Shown here: one piece after another, positions 2,798 to 9,795 of the stretch
Layout: each line of letters begins with the position of its first letter
Numbering within the stretch: position 1 is the first letter of the stretch
Source of the DNA: Bacillota bacterium
GTDB lineage: Bacteria; Bacillota; Clostridia; Tissierellales; Peptoniphilaceae
Direction of reading: 5' to 3'
DNA length: 10,789 nucleotides
NCBI GenBank assembly: GCA_023394215.1
Contig: JAEXBH010000088.1
Coordinates: 1 to 10,789, forward strand
Made by a program: the position numbers and the translations under genes
Notes under the pieces: model-generated
Database searches by the model: none
What the model was told of the DNA's origin: nothing
The model's input: only the letters and a program-made list of their open reading frames with translations

Positions 2798-3073
2798 TTA
2801 GAACCTTTCGCAAGGTTGATTTGCTACACCTGATGATGTCTTTGATGCTGATTGGCATGATGTTTGGCATTCTCCACATCCGCCGTCTATCATTGAAGCT
2901 TGTAAACTTCTCGTCTTTATTGTCTTTATCCTTCCGATACTTTCACAAGGTTGATTTGCTACACCTGATGATGTCTTTGATGCTGATTGACATGATGTTT
3001 GGCATTCTCCGCATCCGCCATCTTGAACAGATGCCTGTAAATTTCTTGTATTTAATGTTTTTATTCTTTCCAT
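2798..3073 (-). CDS. scfA: tandem-duplicated SCIFF (ranthipeptide) precursor with serine-substituted cores
   Basis: This 91-residue peptide is two SCIFF precursors fused in frame. Unit 1 is residues 2-46 and unit 2 residues 47-91, 45 residues each. Each has a leader (RIKTLNTRNLQAS at 3-15; RIKTIKTRSLQAS at 48-60) followed by the SCIFF core GGCGECQTSCQSA. SCIFF means six cysteines in forty-five residues, and normal precursors are single units of about 46 residues. Here each unit has four cysteines (21, 24, 28, 43 and 66, 69, 73, 88). The usual fourth and fifth cysteines are Ser32/Ser36 and Ser77/Ser81, and the Thr expected after the fifth is Gly37/Gly82. In characterised homologues the thioether joins the fourth Cys to that Thr, so both partners are gone in both copies. 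The start has a GGGAGG ribosome binding site 7 bases upstream. The maturase follows after one base; the decarboxylase ends 45 bases before. The family call is secure; the modified product is unknown. Confidence 0.93.
   Translation of the reverse strand: MERIKTLNTRNLQASVQDGGCGECQTSCQSASKTSSGVANQPCESIGRIKTIKTRSLQASMIDGGCGECQTSCQSASKTSSGVANQPCERF
2805..2888 (-). repeat. direct repeat, copy 2 (core of SCIFF unit 2)
   Basis: This 84-base segment matches 2940-3023 at a period of exactly 135 bases (45 codons) with four differences, at 2810, 2855, 2876 and 2885. All four are third-codon-position changes that leave the protein unchanged: three are TGT/TGC in cysteine codons and one is GAT/GAC. It encodes the core of the second precursor unit (residues 63-89). 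Confidence 0.95.
2940..3023 (-). repeat. direct repeat, copy 1 (core of SCIFF unit 1)
   Basis: Partner of the repeat at 2805-2888, encoding the first core (residues 18-44). The similarity falls off sharply outside it: over the 17 leader codons just 5' (including the last, Asp, codon at the repeat edge) the two units differ at about 15 of 51 bases. Confidence 0.95.
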
Positions 3074-3118: not shown

Positions 3119-4534
3119 TCACTTATTTGCAATGATATATATGCTATTTTCATCATGACTACCTGAAAATCTTAAAGTCATATCCGCATCCTTGTATAAA
3201 GATAAAAGCTTTAATTCCTCAACACCCACTAACTGCCCCGGAAGCAAAAAAGGAACTCCCGGCGGGTATATCCAAACATATTCAGCCGACTCTCTTCCCA
3301 AAGCCTCTTCTAAACTTACCAGGATTTTTTTCTCCGATAATGCGGAGCTTATAGACCTTGACCCTTGGCTAATCCTTATATCTTCATAAACTTTCAAGGG
3401 ACCTTCCTGCAAGTTCCTATCTATATCCGCTAAAGCCTTAGCCAGGACCGTCAGTTTATTTATATCAATGCCCATACCCGTATAAGCTATCAAATAGTCC
3501 TTTGAAACCATCTCCGTTTCTATATTATAGCTTTCTCTTAAAACACCGGCTAATTCCTTGGCAGACATATTTGTCCTACCGGTAAAAATTAAAATCTTAG
3601 ATAAATCTCTTTCAAAGCTGCCAACAGTATCATAAGGAATTTTTAAATGTCTGAGATTTTCTGTCATCCTGTAAAACTCTTCCAAATTATCCCGCCATCC
3701 TCCGAGGATTTCTTCGCCTTTGCTCAACAAAAGGTCTATATTTGCATCTATGGATGCCATAAAAAGATAGGAAGGGCTTGATGTTTGAAATATTGATAGG
3801 GCATGTTTAAGCCTTTCCCTATCTATTTCTCCATTTTCAAGAAGTATCGCCGTTTGTGTCAGGGACGCCAAGCTCTTATGAAGGCTTTTCACAACCAAAT
3901 CCGCCCCTTCCTCTATGGCGGATTTAGGAAAATACGGAGATAGTCCCAAATGGGCTCCATGGGCTTCATCTACAAAAAGTCTCACCCCATATTTTTTACA
4001 AAGCTCCGATATGGCTCCTATATCGCTTATTACCCCTTCATATGTGGGACTTGTCAACACAAGAAGTTTAATATCCGGAAATTTTTTAAACTTTTCCTCC
4101 ACATCATCTGCTTCAATACCCAAAGAAATCCCAAAATTTCTATCAATTTTGGGATTAATATATTGAACATCCAAATCCATGAGCTCAAGGCAATGATAAA
4201 CGGACTTATGACAGTTTCTTGCAAGCAAAACCCTGTCCTTCCTCTTCAAAACGGTATATAAGGCAGCAAGATTGCCCCCGCTTGACCCGTTTACCAAATA
4301 ATAAGCCCCTTTAGCCTTCCACAAGCTTGCAGCCCTCTCCATGGATTCTTTTAATATTCCTTCAGGCTGATGCAGGTTATCCAAGCCCTCAACTTCGGTA
4401 ACATCCATATTCGCTCCCAAATCTTTAAGGAAATCCTCCCCGTAAAAATCAAGATTTCTATGGTGCCCCGGCATGTGAAAGGCTATTTTAGTTTTGTCAT
4501 ATTCTTTAAGTATATCAATTAATCTCTTGGTCAT
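3119..4534 (-). CDS. Orn/Lys/Arg decarboxylase-family PLP enzyme
   Basis: A 471-residue fold-type I pyridoxal-phosphate enzyme of the family that decarboxylates basic amino acids to polyamine precursors (agmatine, cadaverine or putrescine). Visible marks are FHMPGHHR at 19-26, the phosphate-binding loop NGSSGG at 82-87, DEAHGAH at 189-195 with Asp189 set to contact the pyridine nitrogen, the Schiff-base lysine K220 in SLHKS, and the C-terminal YPPGVPF motif from 423. The length fits the short Gram-positive form (B. subtilis SpeA/YaaO-like) and not the 700-residue enterobacterial inducible enzymes. The substrate cannot be told from sequence by eye; arginine or lysine is most likely. An AGGAGA ribosome binding site supports the start. 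The gene lies 42 bases after the second permease, with its own promoter candidate in that gap, and 45 bases before the SCIFF precursor. A role in peptide biosynthesis is not supported by any motif. Confidence 0.9.
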   Translation of the reverse strand: MTKRLIDILKEYDKTKIAFHMPGHHRNLDFYGEDFLKDLGANMDVTEVEGLDNLHQPEGILKESMERAASLWKAKGAYYLVNGSSGGNLAALYTVLKRKDRVLLARNCHKSVYHCLELMDLDVQYINPKIDRNFGISLGIEADDVEEKFKKFPDIKLLVLTSPTYEGVISDIGAISELCKKYGVRLFVDEAHGAHLGLSPYFPKSAIEEGADLVVKSLHKSLASLTQTAILLENGEIDRERLKHALSIFQTSSPSYLFMASIDANIDLLLSKGEEILGGWRDNLEEFYRMTENLRHLKIPYDTVGSFERDLSKILIFTGRTNMSAKELAGVLRESYNIETEMVSKDYLIAYTGMGIDINKLTVLAKALADIDRNLQEGPLKVYEDIRISQGSRSISSALSEKKILVSLEEALGRESAEYVWIYPPGVPFLLPGQLVGVEELKLLSLYKDADMTLRFSGSHDENSIYIIANK

Positions 4535-4558: not shown

Positions 4559-4587
4559 ATTCTACCATTCAATCAATTATTTGTTAA
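4559..4587 (-). promoter_or_regulatory. internal sigma-A-type promoter before the decarboxylase/SCIFF genes
   Basis: On the minus strand TTAACA (4587-4582) and TAGAAT (4564-4559) are 17 bases apart, each one mismatch from the sigma-A consensus. The -35 overlaps the last codons of the upstream permease. Transcription would begin near 4552, about 18 bases before the decarboxylase ATG. This would let the decarboxylase, SCIFF precursor, maturase and DUF1275 genes be expressed independently of the ABC operon. Confidence 0.55.
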
Positions 4588-5680
4588 CATAAGCTTCCAG
4601 CTTATAACTGCCGGATGTAAATAAAACCGCAGATAAAAGAAGTATTATAAAGGCAGCAGGGAAAATATTCCCCTTATCAAGTATCTGAATTATCCATGTT
4701 ATAGGTGAAATATAGGATAAATTCTTAAGCAAGGATCCGCTCAATATATCTCCTGCAGCACTTAAGCCTATAAGGACTATAGAAATTAACATACCTGTAG
4801 CCATGGCGATTTGCGGTTCCTTAAATATCCTAAACAATACAAGCCCCAAACTTAAGCTGAATATCATAGAAAGAACTATTATCAAGACAGCCCTATAAAT
4901 CATAACCAAACTTGCCTTATAAATAAAAGCCCCTACTGCAAAGATTATAAAATTAGCAAGAAGCATAAAGATTGCATAAGCCGCAAAAAGTGCAAGATTT
5001 ATGGCAATGCTTGAGTTAGGACTTACAACAGCCCTCTTAAGGCTGTTATTTTTCTTAAGACTTACAAGGTCAAAAGAAACTTGAGCTCCTCCCATTATTA
5101 TATAAAAAGAAAGCAACATCGTTATTGTAAACAGGGTGCCGTTTTCAGACTTAAGCTCCTGCTTATTTTCAATCACACTTATCTTATTCACAAAATAATT
5201 ATCTAAACTGTCCGTATTTTCCATAAGCTTGTTAGACATCAAAGTGCTTTTCAAGATAATATTGTGTACAACACTCCTAAATGTAGATTCAAAAGCCACG
5301 GATTTACTCTTCTCATTTCTTGTATAAAGTTCAACTGCAGGTTTTTCTCCCATTTGCAATCTATTGATGTAATCATCGGGTACCCTGTAAACAGATCCCG
5401 CATCTCCCACTCTCAACTTTTCCAAGGAATCTTCCATATCCTCAACAATATTTCTATCAAAATCCTCTTTTTTAAGAGCTTCCGTCAGACTTTCATTACC
5501 CTGTCCCATGACTATCAAAGTTGCCTGACCGCTTGAAGAAGGCGCTGCGTTTCTTCCCATATCTATGAAAATAAACAAGGAGGACATAACAAGGGGCATA
5601 ATAAAGAAAATCCCCAGATAAGCAGGATTTGTAGCCACCCTCTTAATGTGAAATTTTATCATATTAAATAATTTTTTCAT
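4577..5680 (-). CDS. ABC-2 type permease subunit (second)
   Basis: A 367-residue membrane protein with the ABC-2 export layout: a cytoplasmic N-terminus, one membrane helix (about 21-40), a large extracytoplasmic domain (about 41-180) and a C-terminal cluster of about five helices (182-202, 226-254, 259-284, 291-310, 338-356). The SPITWIIQIL stretch at 325-334 is the characteristic motif before the last helix. It would pair with the other permease and the ATPase to form an exporter for lipids, amphiphilic drugs or peptides. Its ATG overlaps the stop of the preceding permease by one base (TAATG), showing translational coupling. In LnrLMN-type systems the two permeases are likewise distinct and adjacent. 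The substrate is not determined. Confidence 0.88.
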   Translation of the reverse strand: MKKLFNMIKFHIKRVATNPAYLGIFFIMPLVMSSLFIFIDMGRNAAPSSSGQATLIVMGQGNESLTEALKKEDFDRNIVEDMEDSLEKLRVGDAGSVYRVPDDYINRLQMGEKPAVELYTRNEKSKSVAFESTFRSVVHNIILKSTLMSNKLMENTDSLDNYFVNKISVIENKQELKSENGTLFTITMLLSFYIIMGGAQVSFDLVSLKKNNSLKRAVVSPNSSIAINLALFAAYAIFMLLANFIIFAVGAFIYKASLVMIYRAVLIIVLSMIFSLSLGLVLFRIFKEPQIAMATGMLISIVLIGLSAAGDILSGSLLKNLSYISPITWIIQILDKGNIFPAAFIILLLSAVLFTSGSYKLEAYVNK

Positions 5681-6840
5681 TATGCTCTCTCCTCTCTCAT
5701 CCCCAATACCTTAAAGTGCATAAGGTTTATTATTACCATTAGCCCCAAAATCAACAAATAGAAAGGCAAAAATTTATCTATGCCTTCTCCTCTCAAAATA
5801 TTAAAGAAGGGGTCCACAAGAACCTTTTTTAAAGGATTTGATGCCAGCCAGGCAAATACCGGATTATCGCTAATCTTATCAAGCGGCAAGACTCCTGAAA
5901 ATATTAAGTAAACAAATGTTATCGAAGATGATACCAAAGCCGCTTTGCTTTCATTTAAAAATATGGATATAAAAGACGCCAAAGATACTACAAAAAGCGT
6001 AAAAACAAGCAGTATAGCAAGGTATAAGATTATATTTCCGCCAAATGTCGAAGCGTCTATAAGCTTCCAACAAACTATATACAAGGCAAGCAAAACCATG
6101 TAAAATAAACTGTCAGTAAAAAGACTGTATAAAATCTTTTGGTAATGCTTGAAAGGTAAAATACTTAACCTCTTTCCCAAGCCTTTAAACTCGGGCTTTG
6201 CACCGACTTGTATAACTGTAGAAAAAATCATAAGCAAAACATAACCAATACTTACTATTGAAAAATATTGCCTGCCGTTTACCGATCTTGAGCCGTCAAC
6301 CAAATTGGACCTAAATGCCACATCCGCCTCAACCTTCACAAGATTTTCCAAAATTCCCGAAAGCTCTGATTTAGATAGCTTTTTATCCCCTGCAAGTTTT
6401 TCTATAATTTTCCCTTCCTGTAACTTTATATTTATTTCTTCAAGCATAAGCTTTAAATAACTTCTCTGACTTAAAGAAGACTTGGCCTTACCCTCAAGCT
6501 TTATTTTATCCTGTCCTTCTTTATCAAGCAGGGACTTACCATAATTTTCATCAACATATATACTGTAATCAGCTTCTTTCTTATCGGTTTTAACTATTAT
6601 ATTTGACGCCGCAAGGCTCTCGAAGTACTTATCCAAAAGCCTTCCGACCTGACTTTGGTCCTTGTTTTCTATATTTACTCTTATCTTGGGAGCTTTAGAC
6701 TCTACGGAAAATGCCGCTCCGCTTGTAATAGATAAGAATACGGATAATATGATAGGAAGCGCCAAATAAGAAAAGATCAACTTGTGTGACTGCTTCATAT
6801 ATATGCTTAAATTAGTTTTCAAATAATTTAAAAATTTCAT
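5680..6840 (-). CDS. ABC-2 type permease subunit (first)
   Basis: A 386-residue ABC-2 permease with the same architecture as its neighbour: a first helix at about 21-41, a large extracytoplasmic segment (about 45-190, rich in Lys, Glu and Ser) and about five further helices (192-212, 240-258, 267-292, 300-318, 358-376). The segment SNPLKKVLVDPF at 334-345 stands where the paralogue has SPITW. It begins 8 bases after the ATPase stop, and its AGGTGA ribosome binding site overlaps that stop codon. The two permeases are clearly related in plan but divergent in sequence, so a heterodimeric channel is likely. Confidence 0.88.
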   Translation of the reverse strand: MKFLNYLKTNLSIYMKQSHKLIFSYLALPIILSVFLSITSGAAFSVESKAPKIRVNIENKDQSQVGRLLDKYFESLAASNIIVKTDKKEADYSIYVDENYGKSLLDKEGQDKIKLEGKAKSSLSQRSYLKLMLEEINIKLQEGKIIEKLAGDKKLSKSELSGILENLVKVEADVAFRSNLVDGSRSVNGRQYFSIVSIGYVLLMIFSTVIQVGAKPEFKGLGKRLSILPFKHYQKILYSLFTDSLFYMVLLALYIVCWKLIDASTFGGNIILYLAILLVFTLFVVSLASFISIFLNESKAALVSSSITFVYLIFSGVLPLDKISDNPVFAWLASNPLKKVLVDPFFNILRGEGIDKFLPFYLLILGLMVIINLMHFKVLGMREERA

Positions 6841-6848
6841 AATATCAC

Positions 6849-7787
6849 CTAATCTCTCAAATTCTTTCCTGTAAGCTGCAAGAAAGTTTCTTCCAAAGAT
6901 AACTCCTCTACTGATAGAGATTTTATAACCGCATCGGTATCTTCTACAGACTTTATCAGCTTCATCATGGAAAATTCTTTTGAATTTACCGTAAGCTTAA
7001 GTTTATTAAAGTCAGTCTCTACATTGCTTATGGAATTGTTGCTCTCTAAAAGTAATTTTTCAAAACCTTTCGGCACAAAATCAACTTCAAGCAGGATATT
7101 ACCGGATTGTCTTGCCAAATTTTTAACTTCTTCCTTGCTTCCGTAAGCAACCTCTCTGCCCAAGTCCAAAACATAAAGCCTATCGCACAAAGCTTCTATT
7201 TCTTCCATATAATGGGAAATATATAAAATAGTTGTTCCCCTCTCATTTAAACCCTTTAAAAAATCAAAGATGTATTTTCTTGATTGGGGATCGACCCCTA
7301 CTGTAGGCTCATCCAATATCAGAAACTCCGGATCATGCAAAAGGGCTGCAGCTATATTTAATCTTCTCTTCATACCTCCGGAATAGGTCTTTACCTTTTT
7401 TTTAGCACTTTCAGTAAGCCCTGTAACCTCTAAAAGCTCTTCAATCTTTGCCTTCAATTTCTTGCCGCTAAGACCGTACATACCCCCGAAATATTCAAGA
7501 TTGGAGTAGGCATTCAAATCCTCTAAAAGAGCTATATCCTGCGGCACCAAACCAAGCTTTTCTCTTATCTTCAAAACATTATTCTTTATGGACATACCGT
7601 CAAGAAAAACCTCTCCTTCGTCAGCCTTTATAAGTCCGGTAATTATATCTATAAGAGTAGTCTTCCCTGCGCCGTTGGGTCCTATAAGCCCAAATCTCTC
7701 CCCTTTGTTAATCTGCATAGAAACATTTGACAAGACATTTTTGCCGTCATAACTTTTATATATATTTTTAACTTCCAAATAAGCCAT
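6849..7787 (-). CDS. ABC transporter ATP-binding protein (CcmA/Lnr-like)
   Basis: A 312-residue ATPase that powers the two following permeases. All motifs are intact: Walker A GPNGAGKT at 36-43, Q-loop Gln83, signature YSGGMKRR at 135-142, Walker B FLILDE at 155-160 with catalytic Glu160, and switch His192. Residues after about 225 form the C-terminal extension common in drug and antibiotic exporters of the CcmA/NatA/DrrA group. A GGGGGAT ribosome binding site supports the ATG. It is the first gene after the palindrome-bearing intergenic region and after the two-component genes, the order of B. subtilis lnrJKLMN, where this ATPase corresponds to LnrL. Resistance to, or export of, an amphiphilic antibiotic is the best inference; export of the SCIFF product is an alternative without direct support. 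Confidence 0.93.
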   Translation of the reverse strand: MAYLEVKNIYKSYDGKNVLSNVSMQINKGERFGLIGPNGAGKTTLIDIITGLIKADEGEVFLDGMSIKNNVLKIREKLGLVPQDIALLEDLNAYSNLEYFGGMYGLSGKKLKAKIEELLEVTGLTESAKKKVKTYSGGMKRRLNIAAALLHDPEFLILDEPTVGVDPQSRKYIFDFLKGLNERGTTILYISHYMEEIEALCDRLYVLDLGREVAYGSKEEVKNLARQSGNILLEVDFVPKGFEKLLLESNNSISNVETDFNKLKLTVNSKEFSMMKLIKSVEDTDAVIKSLSVEELSLEETFLQLTGKNLRD

Positions 7788-7819
7788 TTCTTTATCCCCC
7801 TGTTATTTATTACAAAATA

Positions 7820-7848
7820 AGTATACAGAATCTTTTAGCGGACAGCTA
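7820..7848 (-). promoter_or_regulatory. promoter candidate for the ABC operon
   Basis: On the minus strand a good -10, TATACT (7825-7820), is preceded after 17 bases by TAGCTG (7848-7843), a poor -35. A strong -10 with a weak -35 and a palindrome centred about 65 bases upstream of the expected start (near 7813) is the usual arrangement of an activator-dependent promoter. Confidence 0.5.
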
Positions 7849-7867
7849 TTGCCATAGGTAATTATTT

Positions 7868-7887
7868 AAAGTGACTTTTGTCACTTT
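7868..7887. promoter_or_regulatory. perfect palindromic operator candidate upstream of the ABC operon
   Basis: Two perfect 8-base arms, AAAGTGAC and GTCACTTT, flank a 4-base spacer. The symmetry and half-site size fit a dimeric NarL/LuxR-type regulator, and the gene for such a regulator lies immediately upstream. The site is about 20 bases upstream of the proposed -35. I found no second copy in the window, including upstream of the kinase gene. Binding by the neighbouring regulator is inference. Confidence 0.65.
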
Positions 7888-7983
7888 CTCTCCCAGTCTC
7901 CATTTCATTCATGAAAAACTAAAAAAGCTTAATTCCATCAACTTTCAAACAATAGCTTTCCATAAATCTTTTAAAATAAACAA

Positions 7984-8006
7984 GGCAGGTAAACTGTTCA
8001 CCTGCC
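7984..8006 (-). terminator. intrinsic terminator after the response regulator
   Basis: GGCAGGT (7984-7990) and ACCTGCC (8000-8006) form a perfect 7-base-pair GC-rich stem with a 9-base loop. On the minus strand it starts 7 bases after the regulator stop and is followed by TTGTTTATTTT, an interrupted T-tract. It should end most two-component transcripts before the ABC genes, with some read-through possible. Confidence 0.7.
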
Positions 8007-8012
8007 AAAATA

Positions 8013-8654
8013 TTAGTTATTCAATCCATTTTCTATGGCAAAAATTGCCAACTGGGTCCTATCTCTGAGATCAAGCTTTAAGAGAATTTGACTTATGGAA
8101 TTTTTTATAGTTCCTTCAGATAAAAACATAATTTCAGCTATCTCTCTGTTATTTCTGCCCTTGGAAACATTTTTTATAATCTCACGTTCCTTATCATTAA
8201 GATCAAGATCGGGTAGCTTAGCCTTGCCTAAAGAAGTCCGATTTACCAGCTTCGAAGACACTTCCCTATCCATTACTATTTTCCCGGATAAAACAAGCTT
8301 TATACCCTCATAGATTTCCCTATAATCACTGTCCTTAAGAAGATATCCCGATGCCCCAAGTTTCATGGCCTCAAGTATATACTCGGTATCCTGGAAAGTA
8401 GTGACTATAAGTATATAGGTATCCGGAAAACTTTCTTTTATAAGCTTTGTTCCCTCTATACCTCCGGAAACCGGCATCCTTATATCCATCAAAACAATAT
8501 CGGGTCTATGAGTTCTTACAAGTTCATAAGCCTCCTTACCGTTTGAAGCAAGCCCTACTACCTCTATATCATCAAGACTCTCCAACATTATCTTGAGTCC
8601 CGACCTTATAAGTTGCTCATCATCAGCTATAATCAACCTGATTTTATCCTTCAT
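8013..8654 (-). CDS. NarL/LuxR-family response regulator
   Basis: A 213-residue DNA-binding regulator. The receiver domain (about 4-120) has acidic Asp11/Asp12, phospho-acceptor Asp57 in LMDIRMP, Thr85 and Lys107, all intact. The C-terminal LuxR-type helix-turn-helix (about 151-213) has REIAEIMFLSEGTIKNSIS as its recognition region. I chose the ATG at 8654 and not the TTG at 8669, because the strong GAGGAGGGG ribosome binding site lies between them and would otherwise be translated. With this start it overlaps the kinase stop by 11 bases. It should be phosphorylated by the adjacent kinase and activate the ABC genes downstream, by analogy with LnrK. The GTGAC/GTCAC palindrome at 7868-7887 is its most likely target. 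Confidence 0.93.
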   Translation of the reverse strand: MKDKIRLIIADDEQLIRSGLKIMLESLDDIEVVGLASNGKEAYELVRTHRPDIVLMDIRMPVSGGIEGTKLIKESFPDTYILIVTTFQDTEYILEAMKLGASGYLLKDSDYREIYEGIKLVLSGKIVMDREVSSKLVNRTSLGKAKLPDLDLNDKEREIIKNVSKGRNNREIAEIMFLSEGTIKNSISQILLKLDLRDRTQLAIFAIENGLNN

Positions 8655-9795
8655 ATTGCCCCTCCTCAACTCTTTTTAAAACAAGTCTGATCATAAAACC
8701 TCGACCGGGGCTTGACTCCATACCAAATATTCCATGAAGCTCTTCAACCCTCTCCCTTATTCCTCTTATTCCCTGGCCAGGGTTAATGGATTCCACTCCC
8801 TGTCCATTGTCTTTCATAGTCAAAATAAGTTCATTTTCAGTAAAAATCAAACTTATATTTACCAGGCTTGCCTTTGCATATTTTCTGGTATTTGAGAGAA
8901 ATTCCTGACAAGCCCTGTATATTAGAAGCTCCTGATCCTCGCTCAGCTTCCACGCCTGCCTGTTGGTTCTAAAATTTATATCAAGCCCCTGTTTAAGCCT
9001 TGAAACATTAAACAACTCCTCAAGTGACAATAAAAGATTTCCCGAACTTAACCCGTCAGGCCTCATATCATGAATCAACTTTCTTATATCCTTCAAACCC
9101 TTACCGGCAAAATCCTTGAGGTTACTTGCCATTTTGGAAACTTCTTCATTGTTTTTCTCACTTAATTTTGCAATTGCTCCAAGCTGAACTATTATGGTGG
9201 TAAGACTGTGACCTACCGAGTCATGTAAATCTCTTGAAATCCTGTTTCTTTCCTTCAAAACATAAATATCCTTTATTGTGTTCATACTCTCTTCAATCTT
9301 GTCATACCTGAGCGTTTTGGAAACAAGCTCCTTTTCCATTGCCCTGTTAAGCTTAAAAATCCTTTCAAAATCTCTTATTATAAAATAAAGACTTATTATC
9401 AAAACAAAAAAAACACTGAGTACAGGCAAAAGTTTAAAAGCCTTAAAAACAATTATCTCATAAAGTCCAAAAATAAGAAAAACAAAAACAAAGCTTAAAT
9501 AAACTCCGGGTTTCATATCTATAAAACTTATATTTACAAGTATATAAGTGAAAACACTCAAACTGAAATCCTTAAAGTAATTTGTAAAAATTACAAAAAA
9601 GACCAAGTCAAAAAATGTGCTCAAATAAAAAGTTATTTTTTTCTCTATAAAATTACTCCTTACCTGACTGTTTATTATAATCATAAGAAGCAGACCGAAA
9701 CCTATCCAATCCCCCGAAAAATTATTGAATATTACATAGTCCAACAAGAGTAATATGCCCATTATCGCCTGGACAAGCGCCATATATTTTTTCAT
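8644..9795 (-). CDS. NarL/DesK-type sensor histidine kinase
   Basis: A 383-residue membrane kinase. The N-terminal 140 residues are almost entirely hydrophobic, with about six membrane segments and only short loops, so there is no extracytoplasmic sensor domain. This is typical of kinases that sense within the membrane or through a partner. A charged linker or coiled coil (145-180) leads to the HisKA_3 phospho-acceptor motif SRDLHDSVGH with His191. The ATPase domain shows the N-box QEFLSNTRKYA with Asn302, DNGQG at 329-333 and GIRGIRERV at 342-350. The ATG has an AGGAGAT ribosome binding site. Gene order (kinase, regulator, ATPase, two permeases) matches B. subtilis lnrJKLMN, so this corresponds to LnrJ and may sense a membrane-active compound. 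That functional link is inference from architecture. Confidence 0.93.
   Translation of the reverse strand: MKKYMALVQAIMGILLLLDYVIFNNFSGDWIGFGLLLMIIINSQVRSNFIEKKITFYLSTFFDLVFFVIFTNYFKDFSLSVFTYILVNISFIDMKPGVYLSFVFVFLIFGLYEIIVFKAFKLLPVLSVFFVLIISLYFIIRDFERIFKLNRAMEKELVSKTLRYDKIEESMNTIKDIYVLKERNRISRDLHDSVGHSLTTIIVQLGAIAKLSEKNNEEVSKMASNLKDFAGKGLKDIRKLIHDMRPDGLSSGNLLLSLEELFNVSRLKQGLDINFRTNRQAWKLSEDQELLIYRACQEFLSNTRKYAKASLVNISLIFTENELILTMKDNGQGVESINPGQGIRGIRERVEELHGIFGMESSPGRGFMIRLVLKRVEEGQYEG

Follow-up and report, generated by a model that had tools for sequence, protein, structure and literature searches.

The window analysed here, a stretch of 10,789 nt from a Bacillota bacterium of the Peptoniphilaceae, encodes a two-unit SCIFF precursor (scfA) whose true anomaly is the loss, in both units, of the thioether donor Cys32 together with Cys36. 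The interpretation that we favour, tentatively and at somewhat less than even confidence, is that scfA and the neighbouring maturase gene scfB constitute a functional, selected four-Cys SCIFF system of Parvimonas-like Peptoniphilaceae, in which the bridge would have moved to the Cys24-Gln-Thr26-Ser-Cys28 motif. Features are listed in Table 1.

In profile searches the scfA product (MERIKTLNTRNLQASVQDGGCGECQTSCQSASKTSSGVANQPCES IGRIKTIKTRSLQASMIDGGCGECQTSCQSASKTSSGVANQPCERF) matches TIGR03973 at 143.7 bits (cut-off 50) and PF13165 at 137.3 bits (cut-off 27), in two stretches each, and the gene is a tandem of two 135-nt units with a mutual identity of 86%, each comprising a leader-like stretch and a core; a start codon is absent at the beginning of unit 2. 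The Cys residues present are Cys21, Cys24, Cys28 and Cys43 in unit 1 and Cys66, Cys69, Cys73 and Cys88 in unit 2, so that the feature from which SCIFFs take their name, six Cys in ∼45 residues, is replaced by eight Cys in 91 residues, although the profile still assigns the product to the family. An initial sequence-only reading had assigned the feature to 2805..3023, where the gene does lie although it is a little longer (2798-3073), and had given the residue numbers correctly for both units (Ser32/36 and Ser77/81, Gly37/82).

Table 1. Features of the SCIFF locus in the window
Feature	Position	Strand	Basis
scfB, SCIFF maturase, radical SAM/SPASM, 455 aa	1429..2796	-	TIGR03974, 740.7 bits (cut-off 425)
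scfA, two-unit SCIFF precursor with four Cys per unit, single 91-aa polypeptide	2798..3073	-	ORF, TIGR03973, PF13165, 135-nt direct repeat
Unit 1, residues 1-45: leader MERIKTLNTRNLQASVQD and core	2939..3073	-	ORF and repeat
Unit 2, residues 46-91 and stop: internal leader-like stretch RIKTIKTRSLQASMID and core	2798..2938	-	ORF and repeat
Ser32 (TCA), where the mapped thioether donor Cys32 is expected	2978..2980	-	Sequence; donor role as reviewed in PMC8326336 and PMC8172795
Ser36 (TCA), replacing Cys36	2966..2968	-	Sequence
Ser77 (TCA), counterpart of Ser32 in unit 2	2843..2845	-	Sequence
Ser81 (TCA), counterpart of Ser36 in unit 2	2831..2833	-	Sequence
Thr34, invariant in the sample (389/389 units); acceptor in one of two published mappings, according to the reviews	2972..2974	-	Sequence
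Thr79, counterpart of Thr34 in unit 2	2837..2839	-	Sequence
Cys24-Gln-Thr26-Ser-Cys28 motif of unit 1, intact; proposed cross-link site (putative role)	2990..3004	-	Sequence
Cys69-Gln-Thr71-Ser-Cys73 motif of unit 2, intact (putative role)	2855..2869	-	Sequence
Orn/Lys/Arg decarboxylase-like PLP gene, upstream of scfA	3119..4534	-	PF01276, 187 bits

According to two reviews, Tte1186a and CteA each form one thioether with Cys32 as the donor (PMC8326336, PMC8172795). The published mappings summarized there agree on this donor and not on the acceptor, which was Thr37 in the first two studies (Bruender, Grove) and the gamma carbon of Thr34 in a later study of CteA in E. coli (Hudson), a discrepancy that the reviews call unresolved (PMC8326336, PMC8172795). 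The claim of the sequence-only reading that both donor and acceptor are missing stands for the donor, which is Ser32 and Ser77 in the window. Of the two reported acceptors, Thr37 is absent, its place in the reviews' numbering being taken by Gly (Gly82 in unit 2), and Thr34 is present.

A genome scan with the window maturase, from which the best 80 of 488 matching stretches were kept, gave as the closest maturases those of Tissierellia KA00581 (L001, 77%) and Parvimonas parva (L002, 76%), both of which accompany a precursor of two units whose four-Cys cores differ from those of the window by 11-13 bases and by silent changes only. A four-Cys clade, for which the sequence-only reading had suggested looking, is thus present, and it is joined by the four-Cys protein records P0002, P0003 and the single-unit P0121 among the matches listed in protein searches (best 120 of 680, of 805 and of 1003 matches). 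A frame or assembly error as the cause of the four-Cys core was rejected, the same core occurring in three assemblies. When the genomes of L001 and L002 (G001 and G002) were searched with the scfA profile at E up to 1, one gene with two stretches was found in each and no second SCIFF gene was seen, and the scfB profile at E up to 1e-60 gave one match in each. In L003 (from a Tissierellia MAG) and L044 (from a MAG with the label Filifactor alocis) the precursor is a two-unit form with six Cys and Gly37, and residues 32 and 36 are the sole differences between their cores and that of the window. The protein matches listed also include two-unit five-Cys forms with Ser32 and Cys36 (P0004, P0005, P0007 and P0009), which look like intermediates at the sequence level, and one protein with a five-Cys and a six-Cys unit (P0006). 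Five-Cys two-unit loci were sought with P0004 as the query in 249 genomes from the order and in 11 from the family to which the Filifactor MAG belongs. The only two-unit-like matches lay in the genomes G001, G002, G003 and G004, which had been found before, and the order in which Cys32 and then Cys36 would have been lost therefore derives from protein records only.

Between the window and L001, the 26-codon cores show 11 base differences in unit 1, 13 in unit 2 and none in amino-acid sequence. With replacement sites making up 76% of core sites, the neutral probability of zero replacements is ∼1e-7 for 11 changes and ∼7e-9 for 13, or 7e-5 and 6e-6 if the switch of Ser30 between TCA and AGT is counted as about two replacement steps in each core; the two units are not fully independent in this test. 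Ser32 and Ser36 are encoded by TCA throughout the six units of the three loci, and a Cys codon is two steps away from TCA. Whole-gene pN/pS ratios, which are rough given that silent sites in scfB are near saturation, are 0.27 for scfA, 0.18 for scfB and 0.49 for the neighbouring decarboxylase-like gene. These comparisons support purifying selection on the four-Cys core and, together with the recurrence of that core in two other genomes, favour the earlier proposal of a selected variant rather than decay. The opposite view, that the system is relaxed and heading for loss and that the Cys-to-Ser changes are harmless drift, is considered very unlikely. It can draw on the genus of P. parva, where four of six genomes (G104-G107) have neither an scfB match (E up to 1e-60) nor an scfA match, so that the SCIFF system appears to be dispensable there and to come and go, and on the possibility that unit-to-unit homogenization spread one change, two Cys being gone in both units. 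It is opposed by the zero amino-acid changes against 11-13 base changes, the low scfB ratio, the restriction of differences from the six-Cys cores of L003 and L044 to positions 32 and 36, and a separate loss of Cys32 in another clade with an intact maturase.

The maturase gene begins one base past the scfA stop codon. That its product is intact, as had been stated from the sequence, is confirmed by the TIGR03974 score, by a match of 561 bits to its closest solved relative, PDB 5wgg, which is annotated as a radical SAM domain protein and which we take to be CteB, and by 11 Cys, comprising the radical SAM CX3CX2C motif (Cys107/111/114) and eight more, that are kept in 288 of 288 maturases. Ten scfB positions distinguish the four-Cys clade, and of these Thr120, Val169, Ala413, Pro417 and Asn449 differ in the six-Cys relatives L003 and L044; Ala413 and Pro417 flank the conserved Cys412 and Cys416, and Ala413 is found also in the L295 maturase, not in those of L176 or L293 (see below). 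A signature sought in the maturase alignment gave no substitution that separates all Cys32-less loci.

A quick maximum-likelihood tree of 69 maturases chosen from the 288 unites the window, L001 and L002 with an SH-aLRT value of 99, followed by L003 (93) and L044 (91), and supports a placement of the window system nested among two-unit, six-Cys, Gly37 systems. Rows of the Ser32/Ser37 kind are placed apart (84). Ser32 and the two-unit layout each require at least two changes on this tree, and Cys32 would accordingly have been lost twice. Because there are only two such origins, no weight is carried by a Fisher test relating the loss of Cys32 to the identity of residue 37 (p = 0.0003; 345 units in 336 loci). 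The second origin of two-unit precursors comprises L070, L245, L247 and L303, all of them six-Cys with Gly37.

Across the class Clostridia, scfA was found in 322 of 391 sampled genomes, and 260 of these 322 were read, including those scoring worse than E = 2.1e-22. With additional Peptoniphilaceae and order-level loci, the window and its near loci, the sample came to 389 units in 380 loci, which is weighted toward relatives of the window and, as loci were found via the family profile or the maturase, could miss far-diverged forms; 40 units of 24 loci were left out as exact repeats, L405 and L406 fell below the family cut-off and were also left out, and L025 holds no unit. At residue 37, 227 of the 389 units have Thr, 158 Gly, three Ser and one Ala. 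That the absence of Thr37 is part of the anomaly, as the sequence-only reading had it, is not supported, since Gly37 is ordinary in much of the family, accompanying six Cys in 152 of the 389 units and the published mappings, as reviewed, disagree between Thr37 and Thr34. Ten residues, Cys21, Cys24, Cys28, Gln29, Ser30, Ala31, Lys33, Thr34, Ser35 and Cys43, are identical in all 389 units. Cys32 is retained in all 227 Thr37 units and is replaced by Ser in nine of the 389, namely the six four-Cys units and three units with SASKTSCSV or SASKTSCSI cores (L176, L293 and L295), which keep an adjacent maturase with the shared Cys.

Loss of Cys32 is thus not unique to the window: a separate clade with SASKTSCSV cores has lost it, and both Cys32 and Cys36 are lost in P0109 (one short contig) and P0256 (three contigs), protein records of the Ser32/Ser37 kind. 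A set of 290 listed proteins, picked by similarity to four-Cys queries and hence not a fair sample, was matched with a pattern requiring Cys24 and Gln29-Ser30-Ala31. Many Ser37 or Ala37 proteins in this set have Ser in place of Cys32, and every matched unit has Thr34. Single-unit SCIFFs in which only Cys32 is lost (SASKTSC, then Ser37 or Ala37) include, besides L176, L293 and L295, the proteins P0019, P0029, P0072, P0240 and others. The converse form, with Cys32 kept and Cys36 changed to Ser (SACKTSSGV or SACKTSSGI), is seen in P0015, P0028, P0049, P0146, P0217, P0230, P0236 and P0263. At 38 of 349 listed loci (e.g. L133, L210 and L231) the stretch around scfA lacks a match to the maturase at E up to 1e-30, which may reflect short flanks or contig ends at some loci and true separations at others.

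The data above support the starting point of the mechanism proposed here: Cys32 and Cys36 became Ser, and the rest of the core and the shared Cys of the maturase stayed fixed. ScfB would continue to dock each leader and to perform its radical chemistry on both units, with a bridge that would no longer start from Cys32. Its likeliest site would be Cys24-Gln-Thr26-Ser-Cys28, which has the same spacing as Cys32-Lys-Thr34-Ser-Cys36, and the product would be a non-alpha thioether between Cys24 and Thr26 (or Cys28 and Thr26) in both units. The core contains two copies of a Cys-x-Thr-Ser-Cys motif (24-28 and 32-36), and since four-Cys cores retain the first while the second has become Ser-Lys-Thr-Ser-Ser, a bridge in the first is favoured. 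Thr26 is present in every one of the 162 units that have another residue than Thr at 37, including all nine that lack Cys32, which would also be consistent with an N-terminal bridge. The CteB structure, as described in one review, suggests that Cys21 of the bound peptide, which is no bridge residue, could contact the open iron in an auxiliary cluster (PMC8326336), and a Cys other than Cys32 can therefore reach this iron. Against an N-terminal bridge, the reviewed work on six-Cys SCIFFs found a single bridge, from Cys32, and none at Cys24/Thr26 (PMC8326336, PMC8172795). Thr26 is moreover no universal acceptor, as it is Thr in 163 of 227 Thr37 units and replaced by Asn, Ala or Ser in the other 64, and its invariance elsewhere may stem from lower divergence only, nearly all core positions being fixed in the Gly37 part of the family. 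The lack of a maturase substitution common to Cys32-less loci and of the system in most genomes of the P. parva genus likewise count against it.

Alternatively, though this is thought rather unlikely, ScfB could still target Thr34 and use a distant donor to close a larger ring, either Cys28, which precedes Thr34 by six residues, or Cys43, which follows it by nine. The invariance of Thr34 between the equally invariant Lys33 and Ser35 is in keeping with this, as is the role of Thr34 as acceptor in one published mapping (PMC8326336, PMC8172795), and in five-Cys units Cys36, two residues past Thr34, could serve. Four-Cys cores, however, have no Cys inside five residues of Thr34, and the ring would be larger than any reported for SCIFFs in the reviews (PMC8326336, PMC8172795). 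Unlikely too is a conserved function without a thioether, in which ScfB introduces another modification, for which Thr34 is one possible site, or the four remaining Cys serve as thiols or bind metal, the Cys32 bridge obtained in the laboratory being incidental. The tree shows two losses of the mapped donor, each beside a maturase in which the 11 shared Cys are kept, and the other four Cys and Thr34 are unvarying in the genome sample, all of which this alternative would accommodate, together with the disagreement between acceptor mappings; the SCIFF maturase products described in the reviews are nevertheless thioethers (PMC8326336, PMC8172795). The retention of Cys32 in every Thr37 unit also speaks against it.

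Finally, the Ser32 oxygen might replace Cys32 as the donor and give a Ser-Thr ether, which is judged highly improbable. Residue 32 is Phe in P0125 and Arg in P0228, single protein records that are possibly errors, and we know of no ScfB relative that forms such an ether. Nor would the oxygen of Ser be expected to ligate the open iron site in the manner of a Cys thiolate. The replacement is, on the other side, Ser in nine of nine Cys32-less units of the genome sample, and radical SAM enzymes are reported to form ether or C-O bonds in other RiPPs, darobactin and TQQ (the latter in PMC8326336).

A broader proposal, which we regard as conceivable yet doubtful, is that the physiologically required modification differs throughout the family from the mapped Cys32 thioether and depends solely on Cys21, Cys24, Cys28, Cys43 and Thr34, ScfB giving a new regiochemistry or chemistry in lineages that lack Cys32 and Cys36. 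If this is true, these lineages display the minimal residue set of SCIFF modification. Either the product of the four-Cys lineage is a different one, or the cross-link mapped in the laboratory is dispensable. SCIFF genes abound in Clostridia, and the two reviewed sets of studies disagree over the acceptor in their product. Natural Cys-to-Ser variants show which residues can be lost (Cys32, Cys36 and residue 37) and which do not vary in the sample (four Cys and Thr34), and since selected variants of this kind lie beside an intact maturase, the question of the SCIFF product becomes directly testable.

The window system shares TIGR03973/PF13165, TIGR03974 and the leader-core layout with CteA/CteB (thermocellin, Clostridium thermocellum) and Tte1186a/Tte1186, but has, unlike CteA and Tte1186a, two units per gene, Ser at 32 and 36, and Gly at 37. 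With the six-Cys Gly37 SCIFFs of L003 and L044 it has in common the upstream decarboxylase-like gene, the two-unit layout and the core except for residues 32 and 36; six-Cys Gly37 SCIFFs of Clostridia, these two included, keep Cys32 and Cys36. The five-Cys SCIFFs of L176, L293 and L295 resemble it in the change of Cys32 to Ser and in a neighbouring maturase with the shared Cys, whereas they keep Cys36, have Ser37 and a single unit, and occupy a separate place on the tree. Radical SAM non-alpha thioethers with other spacings between Cys and acceptor are described for freyrasin (PapA/PapB) and NxxcA, which unlike SCIFFs have other precursors and acceptors (Asp, Asn; PMC8326336, PMC8172795). No mention of four-Cys or Cys32-less SCIFFs, or of a characterized six-Cys Gly37 SCIFF, was found in the accessible text of open-licence papers, and a sequence search for a solved SCIFF peptide structure gave a single match, a ferredoxin-like subunit at E 0.19.

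The decarboxylase-like gene lies upstream of scfA also in L001, L002, L003 and L044. Among loci with at least 1 kb of upstream sequence, 57 of the 75 near loci have a relative no more than 600 nt upstream, as do 24 of the 42 other Gly37 loci and the one Ser37 locus, but none of the 112 Thr37 loci. Further along, positions 4577-9795 of the window encode an ABC-2 type membrane protein (PF12698) together with two more ORFs, one membrane-protein-like and one ATPase-like, and beside these a HisKA_3 kinase and a response-regulator-like ORF, the PF12698 protein and the kinase being assigned by profile and the others from their ORFs.
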